Virus record (IMG/VR): IMGVR_UViG_3300050821_001891
Coordinates: 1-20,365 of that record
Strand: one strand, 5' to 3'
DNA length: 20,365 nt
Source of the DNA: a virus
Shown: piece after piece, positions 8,323-20,365 of the stretch
Numbering within the stretch: the stretch's first letter is position 1
Layout: each line of letters starts with the position of its first letter
Made by a program: the position numbers and the translations under genes
Notes under the pieces: model-generated
Database searches by the model: none
Told to the model about the DNA's origin: nothing
What the model saw: only the letters and a program-made list of their open reading frames with translations

Positions 8323-8913
8323 ATGTCGGAAGATGTGAGAGATCTTTTCGGATTTGTTGCGCCATCAGAAGGGCAATTGTCCACTATATCTAAGTGGGCA
8401 AGTGATGCGCTTGCATTGCAAGCTGAGATAGATGAAGCTGAAGCACACCTTAAAGAATTGAATAAGGAACTTGCCAAAATAATTGAAACAGAATTACCAA
8501 AAGCTATGATGGCTGCTGGGTCAGAAGAATTTACAATGACAAATGGCGGTAAAATATCTATTGATGATGTTATTCAAGGTAGCTTAGCCAAATCAGCCGA
8601 TGAAGAAAAAAGAGATTTTGCCATTCAATGGGTAGCAAATAATGGAGGAAAAGATAATATCAAAAGACATTTTGAAATTGATTTTACAAGAGGGCAAATT
8701 TCATATGCTACGGCATTTCGTGAATTACTTCAAAAAAATCAGGTACATTTTGATGAATTTGAAAGCATACATACTGGTACATTTAAAGCATTTCTTTTTG
8801 AGAAATTAAAAGAATTTTCTAAAACTGGAGAAACAGTACCATTCGATAAAATGGGATTTCGCTTCTTTAAGAAGGCTATAATCAAGCCAGGAAAGAAAGA
8901 TGGCGACTATTAA
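8323..8913 (+). CDS. Conserved phage protein of unknown function, coiled-coil N-terminus
   Basis: This 196-residue protein begins SEDVRDLFGF, continues with a strongly charged coiled coil (about 28-62, LQAEIDEAEAHLKELNKELA) and an alpha/beta body of about 130 residues with WVANNGG near 104-110. The overall layout resembles a family found in many phages near replication genes, but I cannot name it. GGTGAG gives a modest ribosome site. It opens the long operon that runs to 16860 and overlaps the FAD gene by 14 nt. The N-terminal DLF matches the DLF tails seen elsewhere and may bind the same partner. No catalytic motif is seen. Confidence 0.7.
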   Translation: MSEDVRDLFGFVAPSEGQLSTISKWASDALALQAEIDEAEAHLKELNKELAKIIETELPKAMMAAGSEEFTMTNGGKISIDDVIQGSLAKSADEEKRDFAIQWVANNGGKDNIKRHFEIDFTRGQISYATAFRELLQKNQVHFDEFESIHTGTFKAFLFEKLKEFSKTGETVPFDKMGFRFFKKAIIKPGKKDGDY

Positions 8914-9784
8914 CGTTATTGGCGCAGGTATGTCTGGGTTGTTAGCAGCCAACATGCTGCGACGACACAATATCACTGTGTATGAGAAACAAGAAGGATT
9001 GCCTAATAATCATCATGCTGTATTGCGTTTTAGAACGCCTGAAGTTGGCAATGTATTAGGAATACCATTTCGCAAAGTCAATATGATTAAGACTTATGTC
9101 CCTTCTGGGAATGTAGTATCAGATACTCTTACATATTCTAAAAAAGTAACTGGAAAATATCTATCAGATAGATCTATTACTTCTGGAACTACTATAGCTG
9201 AACGATACATTGCGCCGCCAAATTTAATAGAACAAATGGCAAAAAATGTTAATGTTGAATTTAATATGTATGATTTTGATGCAGAAGGACCAAAACATCC
9301 GACTATTTCTACAATACCAATGCCAATATTAATGGCATTATTACAATATCCAAATAAAATTAAATTTGATAATTTTCCAGGCTCTGTTCTATCTGCCACA
9401 ATCGAAAATTGTGATGCATATGTTTCTGTATTATTTCCAGGACAAAATAGGTTTAGTCGCGCAACAATAACTGGAGATCAATTAATAGTAGAGTTTCCCA
9501 ATTTAAAAAGAATTAATCCAAATAGTTTTGAATTAAATAGAATTGTTTGGGAATTAGGTATAGCTGCTGCCAAGATAAAAGATATTCAATTTAAGAAACA
9601 AGAGTATTTCAAAATAACAGAGATTGACGAAGCAGAACGCAAAAAATTCCAAAGATGGGCGACAGTTCATCATAACATCTTTTCTCTAGGTAGATATGCC
9701 ACGTGGCGTCCTAAGTTACTTTTAGATGATTTAATACAAGATGTGAAGAAGATCGAAGGCTGGATCATAAGCGTGGAGCAATAA
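8900..9784 (+). CDS. FAD-dependent oxidoreductase-like protein
   Basis: The N-terminus has a clear dinucleotide-binding Rossmann motif: INVIGAGMSGLLAANML (residues 4-20, GxGxxG at G8, G10, G13), then VYEKQ with the ribose-binding acidic residue about 18 residues on. The remaining 260 residues are not recognisable by eye but are plausible for a flavoprotein. It is shorter than typical amine oxidases. AGGAAAG precedes the ATG and overlaps the upstream gene. It lies two genes before ThyX, itself a flavoenzyme, and among nucleotide-pool genes, so a role in thymidine or modified-base chemistry is possible but unproved. The substrate is unknown. Confidence 0.72.
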   Translation: MATINVIGAGMSGLLAANMLRRHNITVYEKQEGLPNNHHAVLRFRTPEVGNVLGIPFRKVNMIKTYVPSGNVVSDTLTYSKKVTGKYLSDRSITSGTTIAERYIAPPNLIEQMAKNVNVEFNMYDFDAEGPKHPTISTIPMPILMALLQYPNKIKFDNFPGSVLSATIENCDAYVSVLFPGQNRFSRATITGDQLIVEFPNLKRINPNSFELNRIVWELGIAAAKIKDIQFKKQEYFKITEIDEAERKKFQRWATVHHNIFSLGRYATWRPKLLLDDLIQDVKKIEGWIISVEQ

Positions 9785-11736: not shown

Positions 11737-12266
11737 TAGCAACTATCTTCGATACAGAAACAACTGGATTAATAATTAATCCAGCACGCTCTCTTGACTC
11801 GCAGCCAGAGATTATATCTTTGGCTGCGCAAGAAGTCAATTTGGCGACAGGTGAGAAATTAATTTCTTATTATCAAGAATTTAAGCCAATTAAGCCTGTA
11901 TCTGAGGAAATAACAAAGATCACAGGATTTACTAATGAGCATCTAAGTACACGCCCATCTATTTCTATGCATCTAAATGAAATAGTTTCTTTCTTAGAAA
12001 GTGCAAAATTGATAATCGGTCAAAATATTACATTTGATAAAGGCATGTTAGATTTGGAATGCAGACGCTACGGTCCAAATATCAGATGGCCCAAGTCGTT
12101 AGATTTAGTTGAGAATAGTATATTCATTAAAGGCTACCGTTTATCATTAACTAAGCTTCATATGGAGTTATTTGGGAAAGGCTTCGAGGACGCGCATCAA
12201 TCAGATGTAGACGTTGACGCAACAGTCAGATGCGCAGTAGAAATGTTCAGACGAGGTTGGCTATGA
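11733..12266 (+). CDS. dnaQ: DnaQ-like 3'-5' proofreading exonuclease
   Basis: The 177-residue protein shows the DEDDh exonuclease motifs: Exo I FDTETTG with D7 and E9, Exo II QNITFDKGML with D102, and Exo III AHQSDVDVDA with H155 and D160. It removes mismatched 3' nucleotides. It consists of the catalytic domain only, shorter than E. coli epsilon (243 aa), which has a C-terminal tail that binds DnaE. The gene overlaps the upstream gene and the polymerase gene by ATGA junctions, so exonuclease and polymerase are probably made in fixed ratio and form a proofreading pair. The polymerase PHP domain looks degenerate, which fits. Confidence 0.9.
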   Translation: MIATIFDTETTGLIINPARSLDSQPEIISLAAQEVNLATGEKLISYYQEFKPIKPVSEEITKITGFTNEHLSTRPSISMHLNEIVSFLESAKLIIGQNITFDKGMLDLECRRYGPNIRWPKSLDLVENSIFIKGYRLSLTKLHMELFGKGFEDAHQSDVDVDATVRCAVEMFRRGWL

Positions 12267-15145
12267 GAATTCGATCTGAATATAGCTTCAGATATGTTTA
12301 CGGGAAAATATCTGAGGTCCATAATCGAGTTCTTCAACTCGGTTGGGGCGCAGCACCAATATCAGATAGATTATCTACTTTTTCTTTTACAAATTGGGAT
12401 GTTCTGTGCAAAGAAACCAATATTAAACCAATATTTGGTGTAGAAATTGGCGTATCTAGTATGTTAGGGCAAAGCAAGCCTTCAATATCATATTGGACAT
12501 TCTTTGCCATAGATAAGTTGCGCTCAGTTAATGAGTTAGTATTTCAAGCTACAAGCAAATCTGGATCTTATCCATTGCTTACATACGAAGAGGCTATGAA
12601 TGCGAAAGATGTCATTAAGATTGCGGATCACAAAGTTCTTCTTTCTGAGATTAACGAAGGTGACAATTTCTTCATCGCGCTATCGCCGTCAACTCCTATT
12701 GGTCTATTCAGAGCAGCAAAAGAAAAAGGGTATAGATTCATTGCTTCGTCAGATAATGTATTCACTAATGCTGAAGATAAACTTCCTTATCATACTTTGT
12801 TATATAAGAATGCTGAGACTGCTTCTTATCCACAGTATATCTTAGATGATACAGAGTGGCGAGAGGCACTCCCATATGTCGTAACTGACGAAGATGCAGA
12901 ATTGGCTATTGTACATAGAAACTTAATGATGAATATATGCAATGCGAAATTGTTAAAAGCTGATGTATTTGTACCACAAGATAAATTCTCATTAAAGCAA
13001 ATGTGTATTGAAGGCGCATGGAAACTTGGAGTAAATTTAAAAGATCCAATTTACGAAGATCGAATGAAAAGAGAATTAGACTTAATTTATGAGAAAGGAT
13101 TCCAAGATTATTTCTATATCGTTGCAGATTTGGTTGCACATGCAAAGAAACATATGATCGTAGGACCGGGCCGTGGATCATCTTCTGGATCATTACTATG
13201 CTATCTCACTGGTATTACTACTATTGATCCTATTCGATTTGGGCTTTTATTTGAGCGATTCATTGATATCACGCGTGCTGATTTGCCTGATATTGATCTG
13301 GACTTTAGTGACCTTAAACGTCATCTAGTCTTCGATTATATCAAAGAAAAATATGGCGTAGGTCATGTTGCGCGTCTAGGGTCTGTGTTGACTTATCGCC
13401 CAAAATCTATTCTCAATACAGCAGGAATGTCATTAGGAATACCAAAATGGCTAACTGACAAGGTAGCAGATACACTCATAGAGCGATCATCAAAAGATTC
13501 GCGTGCGCTTCAATCATTTGAGGAAACATTCTCAGATACTGAAATAGGAAGGAAACTTCTCAGTGAATATCCTGAAATATCGACTGTATTCGATGTTGAG
13601 GATCATGCGACTAACGCCGGTCAACACGCCGCTGGTATTGCTATTACTAGCGGGGATGTTCTTGATTATGTTGCTATTGACGGCAGAACTGGAGCCATCA
13701 TGGCAGACAAATATGACGCAGAAATTCTAAATATTCTCAAAATAGACATACTTGGATTATCACAACTATCTGTGTTTGAACGTTGTCTAGAACTCATAGG
13801 CAAAGAACCAAGAAATGGCTTTTTAGAATCACTTCCGTTAGATGATCAATCAGCATACGATGTTCTCAATAAGAAGAATTTCTCAGGAATATTCCAAGCA
13901 AATGGTAAGTCATTGCAGATCTTATTTCAATCTATACATACAGATAGATTTGATGATTTAGTAGCGATCACTTCTTTGTCGCGCCCAGGGCCAGTCGCTG
14001 CCGGTGGAGCAGTGCGTTGGACGCGTAAGCGTATGGGCACAGAACCTGTCAGCTATCATCATCCGCTATTAAAGGAATATTTGGAAGTTACATACGGAGA
14101 AGTTGTTTATCAAGAACAAGTTATGAGTATATGCCGTGACATAGGAAAAATGGACTTTCGCGGCATTACCAAAATCAGAAAGGCTATGTCTAAGTCATTA
14201 GGTGTAGAAGAAATGAAGACATTAGGCGAGCCATTCAAAGCAGGTGCGCTCCAAACTGGTTTATCAGAAAGAACTATAGATACGATTTGGGCAGAACTAA
14301 TTCAAATGGGTGCCTGGTCATTTAATCTTAGTCATGCAGTCTCGTATTCTTTGATCACATATTATTGCTGTTGGCTAAAGGCACATTATCCAGTAGAATT
14401 TGCCGCTGCAACATTAGATAATGAATACGATCCTATGAAGCAGCTAAGGCTTCTCAGAGAGCTAGATATAGAAGGTATCAAGTATAAGTCATTAGACATC
14501 GAACATTCCACAGATAAATGGAACATTAAGGTGGAAAACGACAAGAAAATCCTTGTAGGCCCATTAACGAATATCAAAGGCGTCGGACCTGTTACAGTCA
14601 GAAAGATACTTGACTCGCGCAAACCTGGTGGCGCTCCATTGTCGCCTGCCATTCTAACAAAGCTGGAAGAGGCATCAACGAAGATAGATTCATTAACACC
14701 TATTCGTGACGCAATAAATAAATTGCATCCAGATCTAACTAAGATTAAAATAATCTCAGAACCAGAACCCATCTGTGATTTATATCAAGGATTAAGGGGA
14801 GAACATATGATATTCGGATTAGTCAAAAGAATACAGCCTCGGGATTGGAACGATCTACATTCAATTGCAAAGAGAGATGGACGACGAATACAGGGTCAAT
14901 CTTGGGTGTTAAACCTATTCATGCATGACGATACAGACGAAATATTATGTGTTATCAATAGAAATGACTATTTAACTTCAGGCAAGAAAATTGAGGAGAT
15001 TGGTGGGCAAGGCGACGCCTTGTATGCAATCAAAGGATATATTCCGCCGACATTTAGAATGATAGATATTACAGGCATTCGTTATTTGGGTAAGATGTCA
15101 GAACTAAAGGAGCCTAAATTGAAGCATAAGGATCTTTTTGCGTGA
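12263..15145 (+). CDS. dnaE: DNA polymerase III alpha subunit (phage DnaE-like)
   Basis: The start is ATG 12263 in an ATGA overlap, with GAGG upstream; an in-frame ATG at 12230 lies inside dnaQ. The 960-residue protein replicates phage DNA. In order: a reduced PHP domain (1-about 230), the C-family polymerase core with VGPGRGSSSGS from 300, PDIDLDF with catalytic D343 and D345, and D495 in KIDILGL, an SRPGP finger region near 575, a helix-hairpin-helix (IKGVGPVTVRKIL, about 772-784), and an OB-like domain (about 890-940). E. coli DnaE has about 1160 residues; the tau-binding C-terminus is missing. The PHP metal ligands look lost. The protein ends HKDLFA, a candidate clamp-binding tail. Confidence 0.95.
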   Translation: MRIRSEYSFRYVYGKISEVHNRVLQLGWGAAPISDRLSTFSFTNWDVLCKETNIKPIFGVEIGVSSMLGQSKPSISYWTFFAIDKLRSVNELVFQATSKSGSYPLLTYEEAMNAKDVIKIADHKVLLSEINEGDNFFIALSPSTPIGLFRAAKEKGYRFIASSDNVFTNAEDKLPYHTLLYKNAETASYPQYILDDTEWREALPYVVTDEDAELAIVHRNLMMNICNAKLLKADVFVPQDKFSLKQMCIEGAWKLGVNLKDPIYEDRMKRELDLIYEKGFQDYFYIVADLVAHAKKHMIVGPGRGSSSGSLLCYLTGITTIDPIRFGLLFERFIDITRADLPDIDLDFSDLKRHLVFDYIKEKYGVGHVARLGSVLTYRPKSILNTAGMSLGIPKWLTDKVADTLIERSSKDSRALQSFEETFSDTEIGRKLLSEYPEISTVFDVEDHATNAGQHAAGIAITSGDVLDYVAIDGRTGAIMADKYDAEILNILKIDILGLSQLSVFERCLELIGKEPRNGFLESLPLDDQSAYDVLNKKNFSGIFQANGKSLQILFQSIHTDRFDDLVAITSLSRPGPVAAGGAVRWTRKRMGTEPVSYHHPLLKEYLEVTYGEVVYQEQVMSICRDIGKMDFRGITKIRKAMSKSLGVEEMKTLGEPFKAGALQTGLSERTIDTIWAELIQMGAWSFNLSHAVSYSLITYYCCWLKAHYPVEFAAATLDNEYDPMKQLRLLRELDIEGIKYKSLDIEHSTDKWNIKVENDKKILVGPLTNIKGVGPVTVRKILDSRKPGGAPLSPAILTKLEEASTKIDSLTPIRDAINKLHPDLTKIKIISEPEPICDLYQGLRGEHMIFGLVKRIQPRDWNDLHSIAKRDGRRIQGQSWVLNLFMHDDTDEILCVINRNDYLTSGKKIEEIGGQGDALYAIKGYIPPTFRMIDITGIRYLGKMSELKEPKLKHKDLFA

Positions 15146-16895: not shown

Positions 16896-16924
16896 TTGCT
16901 TTTCTCGCGCGATTATGCTATGTT
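16896..16924 (+). promoter_or_regulatory. Sigma70-like promoter
   Basis: TTGCTT at 16896-16901, a 17-bp spacer and TATGTT at 16919-16924 (an alternative -10, TATGCT at 16914, gives too short a spacer). It is placed 42 bp before the ATG at 16966. The spacer holds the palindrome TCGCGCGA, reminiscent of the GCGCGCTCGA element of two other promoters. Confidence 0.62.
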
Positions 16925-16965
16925 AGGGACAGGCACTGATTCCAGTGCCACACAAGGAGCGCATG

Positions 16966-17775
16966 ATGAGTAAAATTTTCCAGGTTCGTTACACAGTGGG
17001 TGACAAAACTGTAGCGCACGAACACTATACTGAAAAAGGCGCACGGTCAGATGCCAAGGGACTTTCCAAGTCAATTGGAAATGCTATGATCGGCGAAATT
17101 GAAGTTGCAGACGATGGAACAAGAGCCCTTTTAAGGGTCTGGGAATTTTCCGGCGGCGAAATGGGCAAGCCTATCAAGAAGGACGGTGAAGTTCCTTCAC
17201 ATACGGAAGTTATCAAAACTGCCGACGAAACGAGACTGCCAGAAGTTACGACAGAGAAGAAGCCCAAGGCTCCAAAGATGACAGAGGCGGAGAAGATCGC
17301 CAAAGTCAAGGCGGATGCCGAAGAGAAGTTGGCGCAGATCGCCGCTGGTACGTTCGTTCTCAAAACTCCGGGCAAGAAGCCCAAAGATCCGAACGCGCCC
17401 AAGAAAGAGAAAATTGAAACAGACAAAGCAGCCAAGATCAAAGAGGCTTTGGATTGTTCCGACGAAACAGCTGAAATCCTCAGCAATATGGGCACTACGA
17501 CAGTCAGTCGTCGCGCCAAGGTTGCCGCTTTGATCATGGACCACGATGGTCCGATCTTAGCGTCCGAGATTATGACAAGTCTCAACGCTGATGTCAAGGA
17601 GGACGATCTCACCTTGAAGAAGGTGATTTCGACGGCAAACTTCGTCAACTATCTCTTCTCTAAGCATGAGCAGCCTTATCGGTTCACCGTTAAGGAAAAG
17701 GCTGAAGGCGACAAGAGCTTCAACTTCGTCCCTGTCAAGATCGAGTATCAAGGTTCAGAAGAAACCGCTGCGTAA
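16966..17775 (+). CDS. GC-rich, Lys/Ala-rich protein with winged-helix-like C-terminus
   Basis: The second of two adjacent ATGs (16966) has AAGGAG at ideal spacing. The 269-residue protein has an N-terminal alpha/beta domain (1-about 75), a low-complexity Lys/Ala/Pro/Glu hinge (about 85-160, with repeated KPKAPK and KPKDPNAPKK), and a C-terminal domain (about 175-260) of helices and strands like a winged helix. The C-terminal part resembles the whole small protein encoded next, sharing a TAN-hydrophobic helix and an aromatic strand. Codon use is GC-rich, and the gene has its own promoter and strong terminator, so high expression is likely. An abundant nucleic-acid-binding protein is a reasonable guess. 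The family is not recognised. Confidence 0.72.
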   Translation: MSKIFQVRYTVGDKTVAHEHYTEKGARSDAKGLSKSIGNAMIGEIEVADDGTRALLRVWEFSGGEMGKPIKKDGEVPSHTEVIKTADETRLPEVTTEKKPKAPKMTEAEKIAKVKADAEEKLAQIAAGTFVLKTPGKKPKDPNAPKKEKIETDKAAKIKEALDCSDETAEILSNMGTTTVSRRAKVAALIMDHDGPILASEIMTSLNADVKEDDLTLKKVISTANFVNYLFSKHEQPYRFTVKEKAEGDKSFNFVPVKIEYQGSEETAA

Positions 17776-17799: not shown

Positions 17800-17828
17800 A
17801 GGGGCGCCACAAAGCGCCCCTTTCTTTA
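17800..17828 (+). terminator. Strong intrinsic terminator
   Basis: GGGGCGC at 17801-17807 pairs with GCGCCCC at 17814-17820 around CACAAA; the flanking A-T pair extends the stem, and TTTCTTT follows. It isolates the gene at 16966 from the next one. Confidence 0.9.
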
Positions 17829-17844
17829 TCAGGATGGGATCAAC

Positions 17845-18108
17845 ATGAACGATGAGAAAATCAGATATTCACCATTAGAATTAAAAATATTGGAAGCCAT
17901 ACCAAAAGATGGAAGACGTATCAGTACAATTGAATTAGCAGGAAAAGTTTATGAGCCTGGAAAGTCACCTAGATATGCAAGACAATCAGTTTTGCATACG
18001 GCCAATTATTTAATACAGAAAAGCGACGATAACAACGAACCATGGGAAATTTTCAAATCAGGAAGTAAGCCTATATGTTTTTGGTATCAACTTCGTGAAA
18101 CTAAGTAA
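17845..18108 (+). CDS. Small winged-helix-like protein, 87 aa
   Basis: AGGATGGGA upstream of the ATG serves as the ribosome site. The protein is a single domain: LELKILEAIPKDGRRIS (10-26), a second helix, a basic RYARQSVLHTANYLI recognition-like helix (about 42-56) and two aromatic strands ending FWYQLR. This is the layout of a winged helix. It resembles the C-terminal domain of the preceding protein and could be a paralogue of it. Codon use returns to the AT-rich phage type. It lies only 17 nt after the terminator, so it depends on read-through. DNA binding is likely; the target is unknown. Confidence 0.65.
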   Translation: MNDEKIRYSPLELKILEAIPKDGRRISTIELAGKVYEPGKSPRYARQSVLHTANYLIQKSDDNNEPWEIFKSGSKPICFWYQLRETK

Positions 18109-18180
18109 TCAAAATCAGTATCAGTGCCTGAAAGGGCTAAGTCCTTGTAATCGTTAAGAAAAAATAAATAAAAATAACAC

Positions 18181-18209
18181 TTGCTTCCCTTTTCTTTTCG
18201 TGCTTACAT
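18181..18209 (+). promoter_or_regulatory. Sigma70-like promoter with A-rich upstream tract
   Basis: TTGCTT at 18181-18186, a 17-bp spacer and TTACAT at 18204-18209. The preceding 18152-18178 is almost pure A/T and could act as an UP element. Transcription from about 18217 would give a 110-nt structured leader before the first secreted-protein gene. Confidence 0.5.
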
Positions 18210-18222
18210 AGGGACATAAACC

Positions 18223-18305
18223 GCAACGGGGACACATTGTTGCCGGAATGCGGTCGTCATTCCAGTTTAAGAAACTGGGGTCCGGGGAAGGCGACGGTTT
18301 TCGCC
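18223..18305 (+). other. Hairpin-rich 5' leader
   Basis: Four small stems follow one another: GCAAC/GTTGC (18223-18243), GGAATG/CATTCC (18245-18263), CCAGTTT/AAACTGG with an AAG loop (18262-18278) and GGCGA/TCGCC (18290-18305). The second and third share bases at 18262-18263, so they compete at their ends. The stretch is GC-rich and has no credible gene. It may be a regulatory or stabilising leader; no known riboswitch was recognised. Confidence 0.45.
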
Positions 18306-18326
18306 ACAATTGAGAAAGCACACCAA

Positions 18327-18611
18327 ATGAAGAAGATCCTTCTGGCTACCGCGTTGATTTTCGCGGTTTCTCCTGCGTTCGCTCATGCGGGCTTTGGCGT
18401 TGGGCATACGTCCAGCAACTCGGCTGCGGCCTCGGTTGGGCACGCTGCTGCGTTCGGAACTGGCGCGGCCATCGGCGCTGGCGTTTCCGCGAACGGTAAT
18501 GCCGCTTCCATTGGCGCGGCCACCTCGTCCTCGGGCGCGGCTTCGGTTGGTAACGGGGCAGCGGCTGGCTCGAACAGCGCGACGGGCGTTGGCGCAGCGG
18601 CCGGTTTCTGA
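18327..18611 (+). CDS. Secreted Gly/Ala/Ser-rich protein 1, 94 aa
   Basis: The ATG at 18327 follows GAGAAAG at 8 nt. The first 20 residues are a textbook Sec signal peptide (KK, then a hydrophobic core, then AFA before HA). The mature 75 residues are almost only Gly, Ala, Ser, Asn, Val and Thr, with short repeats such as NGNAASIG, SSSGAASVG and NGAAAGSNSATG. The spacing recalls the beta-roll head repeats of YadA-type adhesins, though no anchor or stalk is present. It would be exported to the periplasm or beyond. GC-rich codons differ from the phage core, which suggests acquisition from a host. It is first in a three-gene cassette. Function is unknown. Confidence 0.75.
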   Translation: MKKILLATALIFAVSPAFAHAGFGVGHTSSNSAAASVGHAAAFGTGAAIGAGVSANGNAASIGAATSSSGAASVGNGAAAGSNSATGVGAAAGF

Positions 18612-18624
18612 TCGCTTGAAATTG

Positions 18625-18657
18625 CCCGCGTGAGTTAACCCTCACGCGGGTTTTTCT
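18625..18657 (+). terminator. Strong intrinsic terminator
   Basis: A perfect 10-bp stem CCCGCGTGAG/CTCACGCGGG around TTAACC, followed by TTTTTCT. It lies between the first and second secreted-protein genes, only 24 nt before the next ATG, leaving no room for a separate promoter. Confidence 0.93.
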
Positions 18658-18680
18658 GACTCTACAAGGAGTTATAAGCG

Positions 18681-19025
18681 ATGAGAAATGTCTTCAATAT
18701 CAGTGTGTTAGCGTTGACGCTGTTCGCAGCGCCAGGCGCTTACGCGCTTCCTTCAGCGCCAGCTGCTCCTGGCGTTTCGACAAGTTCTCATGGAGCCTCG
18801 GCTCCTGGCGTCACAACTGGTGGATCCAATGGTCACTCGACTTTTGGGTCTGTCAGTACGGCGACAGGGAAGGGGAATCCATCTGCGACTTCTTTCGGCA
18901 TGTCAACAACTAATGGCGCTCCTGCTGTTGGAAGTGCTGGCACTGCGGCGGCCGCCACTGGCGGGAATGGCGCTGCGGCGGCCGGTTCTGTTGGCAGTAC
19001 CTCTGGGGCAACTACGTCGCCCTAA
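18681..19025 (+). CDS. Secreted Gly/Ala/Ser/Thr-rich protein 2, 114 aa
   Basis: AAGGAG precedes the ATG. A signal peptide covers residues 1-22, with cleavage expected after AYA. The mature part starts with a Pro/Ala-rich segment (SAPAAPGVS) and continues with Gly/Ser/Thr/Ala repeats such as ATGGNGAAAAGSVGSTSG. There are no cysteines, no membrane segment and no recognised domain. It is similar in style and size to protein 1 and is probably a diverged paralogue. An intrinsic terminator follows directly, so transcripts through all three genes would be graded. A role at the cell surface, such as altering phage or host adhesion, is only a guess. Confidence 0.73.
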   Translation: MRNVFNISVLALTLFAAPGAYALPSAPAAPGVSTSSHGASAPGVTTGGSNGHSTFGSVSTATGKGNPSATSFGMSTTNGAPAVGSAGTAAAATGGNGAAAAGSVGSTSGATTSP

Positions 19026-19029
19026 AATG

Positions 19030-19060
19030 AATGGGGGTCCCAAGCAAGGCCCCCATTTTC
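19030..19060 (+). terminator. Intrinsic terminator
   Basis: AATGGGGG-type arm at 19030-19037 pairs with CCCCCATT at 19050-19057 around a 12-nt loop, followed by TTC and TT. It sits between the second and third secreted-protein genes, 24 nt before the next ATG. Confidence 0.85.
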
Positions 19061-19083
19061 TTCCCAAAAAGGGACATAATTCA

Positions 19084-19755
19084 ATGAAAACGGCATTCGC
19101 AATTGCGCTCTTGCTCACATGCAGCGCCCCAGCGATGGCCATGGGAGTTGGCCACAATGGTAGTGGCCATAATGGTGGCACTGTTACATCAACAGTAGGT
19201 GGAACAGGAGAGCCAACAGATGGCACTCCAGGTACTGGCGTTAGCGTAAGTGTTGGTGGGTTTAGCGCCACAGCAGGTTGCTGCACTTCTGGGCCAACAT
19301 CTGCGAGTATGGGTGGTGGCAGCGCGTCAGGCATCTCCGGTTCTGGTCCAGCGGCTAGCGTTGGATCGCCAGGTGGCAACAATGGAGGAGGCGGTGGTAC
19401 AGGGCCAGGTGGCGGAGGTGGAACGGGACCGGGAGGTGGCGGTGGTACAGGACCGGGTGGTGGAGGTGGAACGAGCCCAGGTGGTGGGACAAGTCCTGGC
19501 GGCGGCAGCGGCAGCAGTCCTGGCGGTTCTTCTAGCTCCAGTTCTTCTTCCGCTTCTAGTAGTTCTGGCTCACCAGGACACGTGAGTGCAAGCGCATCAG
19601 CAAGTCCAGGTTCAACAGCTAGCGCTACAGCAACTAATGGGCATGTCTCAGTTACTGCTTCGGCGCCACCAGGATTGAGCCCATCGACCGGCAAGCATCT
19701 ATATCCCAATTTAGATTGCGGTCTATTCCCATTTTTGACGCAGTGTTATAAGTAA
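19084..19755 (+). CDS. Secreted Gly/Ser/Pro-rich protein 3, 223 aa
   Basis: The start at 19084 follows AAGGGAC; a longer in-frame reading begins inside the previous gene and is rejected. Residues 1-19 are a signal peptide ending PAMA. The mature protein has a His/Gly N-terminus (HNGSGHNGG), a region with a CC pair (about 78-79), four GGGGGTGP-type octapeptide repeats and related units (101-146), a poly-Ser tract, a Ser/Ala/Thr-rich stretch and a distinct C-terminus with two cysteines (CGLFPFLTQCYK). The C-terminal Cys pair could form a disulfide after export. It is the largest of the cassette. It looks like a surface or matrix protein, but no family is recognised. Confidence 0.75.
   Translation: MKTAFAIALLLTCSAPAMAMGVGHNGSGHNGGTVTSTVGGTGEPTDGTPGTGVSVSVGGFSATAGCCTSGPTSASMGGGSASGISGSGPAASVGSPGGNNGGGGGTGPGGGGGTGPGGGGGTGPGGGGGTSPGGGTSPGGGSGSSPGGSSSSSSSSASSSSGSPGHVSASASASPGSTASATATNGHVSVTASAPPGLSPSTGKHLYPNLDCGLFPFLTQCYK
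19384..19521 (+). repeat. 24-bp coding minisatellite
   Basis: Four 24-bp units (from 19384, 19408, 19432 and 19456) encode GGGGGTGP three times and GGGGGTSP once. A shortened 18-bp unit (GGGTSP, 19480-19497) and a 24-bp variant (GGGSGSSP, 19498-19521) follow. The units differ at third positions, so they are not fresh copies, but the array could still vary in length. Confidence 0.85.
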
Positions 19756-19761
19756 TAGAAT

Positions 19762-19929
19762 TCTCAACGCATCAACAGCCCCCCGATGACGTTGAGATAC
19801 GGGCGGATGAAGGGTTGTCCCCTATCCTCATCCGTCCGGTTCCTTCTGGCGTACGTCACCGACTTGACCTGGCGCTAGAAGAGACGGACGGCGAACTTCC
19901 TGCCATGGTTGATCGCCGTCCGTTTTTTG
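19762..19929 (+). ncRNA. Candidate structured RNA with four hairpins
   Basis: This 168-nt gene-free stretch folds almost end to end. Hairpin 1 is TCTCAACG+CATC paired with GATG+CGTTGAGA (19762-19797), with six consecutive C in the loop. Hairpin 2 is GGGCGGATGA/TCATCCGTCC (19801-19837) with an inner AGGG/CCCT stem. Hairpin 3 is CTTCTGGCG/CGCTAGAAG (19843-19881). Hairpin 4 is the terminator. The C-rich loop could pair with ribosome-binding sites. It may be a small RNA or the stable 3' end of the cassette mRNA. No promoter directly before 19762 is clear. Confidence 0.55.
19884..19929 (+). terminator. Very strong intrinsic terminator
   Basis: A perfect 11-bp stem ACGGACGGCGA (19884-19894) / TCGCCGTCCGT (19913-19923) is followed by a run of six T (19923-19928). 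It ends the secreted-protein cassette or the candidate RNA. Confidence 0.95.
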
Positions 19930-19942
19930 TTATTTTGATATT

Positions 19943-20232: not shown

Positions 20233-20365
20233 ATGGGAAGACCCAGAAATAAACGAGAAGGTGAATGCAAATTTTGCAGTAAGAAATTGGTTCTCAATAG
20301 AAAAAATAAACTATTTTGTAGTGATTCTTGTAGAGTAAAATCCCATAATCGCAATGAAAAATTAA
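20233..20365 (+). CDS. Small zinc-finger protein, 3' end outside the window
   Basis: AAGGAG precedes the ATG, and 44 codons are visible with no stop before the window ends. The N-terminus is basic (GRPRNKR), followed by a four-cysteine finger: CKFC at 12-15 and CSDSC at 29-33, then RVKSHNRN. This CxxC-x13-Cx3C form with CSDxCR is typical of small zinc-ribbon proteins common in phages and plasmids, which are usually DNA-binding or unknown. It lies behind a promoter with a palindrome in the spacer and may be autoregulated. Full length cannot be judged. Confidence 0.7.
   Translation, partial: MGRPRNKREGECKFCSKKLVLNRKNKLFCSDSCRVKSHNRNEKL

Follow-up and report, generated by a model that had tools for sequence, protein, structure and literature searches.

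Why a soil phage should carry, beside its replication genes, three consecutive genes for apparently secreted proteins of low complexity is the question raised by one locus of a complete virus record from a metagenome collection. The whole record of 20,365 bases, referred to here as the window, was analyzed; its replication genes encode a ligase, a ThyX-type thymidylate synthase, a DnaE-type polymerase and an SNF2 helicase. Sister phages were found by a helicase search, and the DnaE proteins of those members that cover the slot of the three genes are 67-79% identical to that of the window. A terminase search with phrog_2, intended to place the phage by its relatives, gave no match. Elsewhere in the window, the phage protein encoded at 8900-9784 begins with an FAD/NAD-binding Rossmann segment and matches phrog_4828 (unknown function) and Pfam NAD_binding_8.

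Organization of the cassette and its predicted products

The three genes form a compact plus-strand unit (18181-19935) that consists of a promoter, a leader, the genes P1, P2 and P3, and hairpins after each gene. The promoter match (18181..18209) is followed by a structured 5' leader of about 117 nucleotides (18210..18326; z = -2.7 for 18211-18335). An intrinsic terminator (18624..18651) separates P1 (18327..18611, 94 amino acids) from P2 (18681..19025, 114 amino acids), and a terminator-like hairpin with a T tract (19029..19058; z = -2.9) lies between P2 and P3 (19084..19755, 223 amino acids). Behind P3, four stable hairpins stand in tandem (19756..19935), the fourth of which is an intrinsic terminator. 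This 3' block (-86.8 kcal/mol, z = -7.8) was not equaled in stability by any of 200 dinucleotide shuffles and ranks third among 16,476 GC-corrected segments of the window and the sister phages. An Rfam search with the hairpins at 19756-19935 returned no meaningful match; they possibly represent a stable 3' end or a separate small RNA. The preliminary description had treated 18181-19929 as a three-gene cassette. Three open reading frames do lie inside this range, but it begins with promoter and leader, and its last approximately 170 bases are structured RNA and terminator and thus non-coding.

The characterization of the products as signal-peptide-like starts followed by Gly/Ala/Ser/Thr-rich repeats, encoded by three consecutive plus-strand genes, was confirmed for all three reading frames. 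Each N-terminus has a short basic n-region that leads into a hydrophobic core and then an AxA-type site, with cleavage predicted by eye at AFA-HA, AYA-LP and AMA-MG (the hyphen marks the cut) for P1, P2 and P3, respectively. AxA-type sites after a hydrophobic core are typical of signal peptidase I substrates. A rule-based scan agreed with the reading by eye on export and shifted some of the cleavage sites. Export of P1-P3 is thus a well-supported prediction. Their mature parts contain 69-75% Gly, Ala, Ser and Thr, and only 0, 1 and 5 charged residues in P1, P2 and P3, respectively. Six [SAG][VI]G motifs follow each other in P1 at spacings of 12, 12, 13, 12 and 14 residues, a regularity matched by none of 20,000 composition shuffles for a motif that was picked post hoc from the sequence itself. 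P2 is an Ala/Gly/Ser/Thr-rich chain with loose repeats (period of approximately 13-18 residues). P3 contains GGGGGTGPG repeats, with a 24-bp tandem DNA repeat encoding GGGGGTGP, as well as a Ser-rich stretch and four cysteines in its mature part. Transmembrane, lipobox or enzyme features were not seen in any of the three proteins. Common ancestry of P1, P2 and P3 is unsupported, as their pairwise alignment scores were equaled in 37 to 411 of 500 composition shuffles.

Searches of Pfam, PHROG, NCBIfam and PADLOC with P1-P3 yielded no family at a meaningful score. No relatives were detected, on the DNA or the protein level, in phages, plasmids, viral contigs and genome contigs, a negative that is weakened by low-complexity masking. 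The absence of homologues in the searched sets precludes a selection test and any assignment of function by homology; it also means that no homologue is a known virion protein, a finding that had been named in advance as one that would speak against a new system. The proposal that P1 resembles a YadA-type head received no support: Pfam gave no YadA match up to E = 1 and no match for a C-terminal beta-barrel anchor in this protein of 94 amino acids, there was no sequence match in the PDB, and the AlphaFold model reached a pLDDT of only 39. This value, like the pLDDT of 41 for a sister-phage PEP-CTERM protein (see below), makes the models too poor for a fold search.

Promoter class and flanking phage genes

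The cassette promoter (TTGCTT-N13-GTGCTTACAT) differs by one mismatch from a promoter class of the phage lineage, TTGCTT-N13-RTGCTA-N3-T. Exact sites of this class number 16 in the sister contigs and the window, compared with 0-1 per Markov-shuffled set; 13 of them are intergenic and the other three precede a conserved structured leader. When up to two mismatches are allowed, 48 sites are obtained against 31-43 in shuffles, and because the enrichment fades into noise at this level, the promoter claim depends on exact and one-mismatch sites. The class resembles a sigma-70 type and could also be a consensus of the host. Some bacterial genes for PEP-CTERM proteins, the class found in the sister phages (see below), have sigma-54 promoters; a search for such promoters 5' of the cassette and of the sister PEP-CTERM genes found none. 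The lineage promoter class also drives a highly structured leader of 280-320 nucleotides that is 85-95% conserved across three sister contigs (L032:17798-18075, L040:15007-15284, L046:4905-5222), lies upstream of a gene for a protein of 137-140 amino acids and has no Rfam match.

Phage genes flank the cassette on both sides. Upstream, an exact and intergenic copy of the lineage promoter (16896..16924, plus strand) precedes a gene for a conserved phage protein of 276 amino acids (16945..17775, plus strand; the ATG at 16966 is the likelier start), which is 49-67% identical to its sister-phage counterparts with a single exception at 36%. It is followed by a terminator (17800-17821) and by a gene for a conserved phage protein of 87 amino acids with a weak winged-helix match (17845..18108, plus strand), which forms the upstream boundary of the cassette. 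The downstream boundary is a small zinc-finger-like phage gene with a CxxC...CxxxC pattern, of which only the 5' part (20233..20365, plus strand) is present before the record ends. Its product shares 30-46% identity with small phage ORFs; the best match (E = 6e-5) is to an ORF elsewhere in the genome G006 (contig L046), and matches to ORFs at the homologous place are weak (E = 0.01-0.4). With a lineage-type promoter inside and phage genes on either side, control of the cassette by the phage appears well supported at the level of sequence.

Between the 87-amino-acid gene and the cassette promoter, a 20-nucleotide intergenic sequence (18137..18156, plus strand) is identical to that at the corresponding place in sister contig L022 (236-255), and near copies occur in intergenic regions of other sisters. 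The underlying motif, CTAAGTCCTTGTAATCGTTA, was located at L040:10286 and 10412, L032:12100 and L036:8079 in addition to these two places. It occurs in few copies per genome, often adjoined by GGACA repeats, and is a possible operator or recombination site.

Exported PEP-CTERM proteins in the sister phages

The three-gene order is absent from the sister phages: none of those with the same neighboring genes has P1-P3. Instead, eight of the nine sister records that reach sufficiently far beyond the 87-amino-acid gene each encode a single protein that combines a signal peptide with a PEP-CTERM signal above the Pfam cut-off. As some of these records are near-duplicates, they represent about six independent cases. 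In the remaining record (L009), a tail-like gene is found at this place. The PEP-CTERM genes (among them L002:14040-14615, L003:11036-11683, L004:13694-14344, L007:14031-14765, L008:12591-13325, L011:14269-14922 and L022:1239-1889) sit at the junction between the replication genes and the lysis and tail genes that converge on them, and the adjoining lysis genes encode an M15 peptidase and a GH19-like protein. Exact copies of the lineage promoter were found at sister PEP-CTERM genes at L034:7923, L042:6998 and L047:15528. Six of the PEP-CTERM genes share a partly conserved leader with a hairpin in which covariation is limited to two base pairs that have both partners exchanged. The PEP-CTERM proteins encoded behind a shared promoter or leader are nevertheless of two or three different types at the least, as if the cargo were exchangeable. 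The cassette lies between the 87-amino-acid and zinc-finger genes, whereas the sister PEP-CTERM gene follows the zinc-finger gene, at a place beyond the end of the window. The two loci are thus neighbors with a common promoter class and exported products, and are not proven equivalents.

No exosortase was detected in the seven phage records searched, so that sorting of the PEP-CTERM proteins would need a host enzyme. PHROGs contained no match for these proteins, the one that was searched against cultured phages had none there, and a genome scan with a sister PEP-CTERM protein found no match either. None of the papers found in the literature collection searched links PEP-CTERM to viral accessory genes, and the sister proteins are possibly the first described phage-encoded exosortase substrates. 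Among 46 other DnaE-bearing virus records, a single one (G019) has a PEP-CTERM protein above the cut-off. In this more distant phage, the protein is encoded beside a NusG/RfaH-like protein, recognized by eye (L139:1039-1764 and 1845-2360). RfaH-type factors are frequent regulators of polysaccharide operons. Small proteins with signal peptides, some with short repeats, are also encoded elsewhere in the lineage (L033:5812-6102, L032:11449-11724, L046:13581-13820 and L075:20021-20272); none of them matched Pfam at the cut-off, and those of L033, L032 and L046 were also without a PHROG. In bacteria, PEP-CTERM proteins have been tied to exopolysaccharide (PMC1569441) and to flocculation (PMC9850573).

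A proposed role in the host envelope, its rivals and known systems

These observations can be read as an accessory (moron) cassette, whose exported proteins are expressed from a phage promoter and act in the envelope or exopolysaccharide layer of the infected host, a reading to which we would give an even chance. Two marks of a moron are present, namely absence from close relatives and, as far as the bases tell, an own promoter and own terminators. In this respect, the preliminary description of a moron cassette with predicted exported products beside the replication genes has stood up, and the exported PEP-CTERM protein near the same place in eight sisters fits a change of the host surface or matrix. 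A single phage-type promoter would transcribe the structured leader together with P1, P2 and P3. No match to the promoter class precedes P2 or P3, where there is little room for one, and we therefore infer that the two internal terminators may grade output in the order P1 > P2 > P3, before the message would terminate in the very stable hairpin array. The proteins would be exported by the Sec pathway of the host, and the mature chains, mostly uncharged hydrophilic repeats, may stay in the periplasm, at the cell surface or in the exopolysaccharide layer. The resulting change of surface or matrix could reduce adsorption of competing phages or alter the aggregation of infected cells. The sister phages appear to act likewise through a single PEP-CTERM protein that would need the host exosortase.

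The alternative that deserves the most attention, unlikely as we consider it, is passenger DNA, meaning genes of small secreted proteins that the phage recently took over from a bacterium together with promoter and terminators and that bring it no benefit. The confinement of the cassette to this phage among its sisters would be expected in that case, there is no sign of long residence, and the contents of the slot differ among relatives. Base composition speaks on both sides. The total GC of P1, P2 and P3 (0.66, 0.59 and 0.57, compared with 0.34-0.39 outside) upholds the reported contrast between a GC-rich cassette and AT-rich replication genes, but the Gly/Ala content accounts for part of it. 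Gly and Ala codons raise GC, and the third-position values (P1 0.67, P2 0.46, P3 0.37) indicate that much of the GC of P3 and part of that of P2 derive from amino-acid composition. Third-position GC was determined for six further genes; it is 0.25-0.31 in five of them and 0.56 in the 276-amino-acid gene. P1, far above most phage genes, looks foreign, whereas P3 lies near them and need not be. Against mere passengers stand three intact frames, each with a start, signal peptide and terminator, a promoter that belongs to the class of the phage lineage, and the recurrence of exported cargo in that lineage.

That P1-P3 are instead accessory proteins of the virion or tail, with Gly-rich or collagen-like particle repeats and an N-terminal hydrophobic stretch that is not an export signal, is improbable. 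Phage tail fibers are known to contain such repeats, and sister L038 has a collagen-like one in a gene of its tail region (near 12140-12340, minus strand). This explanation has to contend with three clear signal-peptide-like N-termini, with the plus-strand position of the cassette beside replication genes when the tail and lysis genes of the sisters are on the opposite strand, and with a promoter class common to the 276-amino-acid gene and the PEP-CTERM genes. Slightly less probable still is a function in lysis, in which exported chains would jam or loosen the envelope late and thereby aid release. Predicted export suits it, as does the proximity of the M15 peptidase and GH19-like genes to the PEP-CTERM gene in sisters, but no transmembrane, lipobox or enzyme feature and no family match was seen in P1-P3, and the cassette itself adjoins replication genes. 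An artefact, either misassembled host DNA or chance ORFs in a GC-rich non-coding stretch, is very improbable despite the jump in GC at approximately 18181 and the drop at approximately 19930. Phage coding sequence on both flanks and the lineage promoter inside show the cassette to be phage-borne and not misjoined, so that the misassembly named in advance as a refutation was not borne out; sister intergenic DNA at that place is often GC-rich as well (45-55%), and chance would hardly give three successive signal peptides with separate terminators.

The favored reading of an accessory envelope cassette can tentatively be extended to the lineage, which may maintain a region, expressed from a promoter class of its own, for proteins that remodel the host surface or matrix; in most members this would be a PEP-CTERM protein that depends on the host exosortase, and here three free secreted repeat proteins. 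If so, phages would contribute to the host surface besides recognizing it, through exported matrix or surface proteins of which some are sorted by the host exosortase. Soil phages would thereby be connected with biofilm structure, and infected cells would have a means of repelling rivals or staying clumped. The recurrent phage-borne PEP-CTERM gene was unexpected; it is the result likely to surprise a specialist most and may be new.

Among known systems, Llp of phage T5 is a superinfection-exclusion moron whose product, a folded lipoprotein, has a known receptor as its binding partner. Morons of this type share with the cassette an accessory phage gene with its own expression signals and a product exported to the host envelope; unlike Llp, P1-P3 are repeat chains from three genes, without lipobox or homologues. 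The short Gly/Ala/Val-rich repeats of P1 recall the head repeats of YadA-type trimeric autotransporter adhesins, but P1 is too short for a stalk and beta-barrel anchor and, as noted, has no Pfam YadA match. Collagen-like or Gly-rich tail-fiber repeats are resembled by the GGGGGTGPG repeats of P3, and the cassette differs from tail-fiber genes in its signal peptides, genome position and strand. Compared with the PEP-CTERM/exosortase proteins of Gram-negative bacteria (PMC1569441), P1-P3 lack the C-terminal PEP-CTERM signal (Pfam, NCBIfam) and the phages lack exosortase. What they have in common is the signal peptide, as judged by the rule-based scan; the bacterial proteins show little homology outside their tag and a link to exopolysaccharide and aggregation (PMC1569441), and true examples of them are encoded next door in the sister phages.
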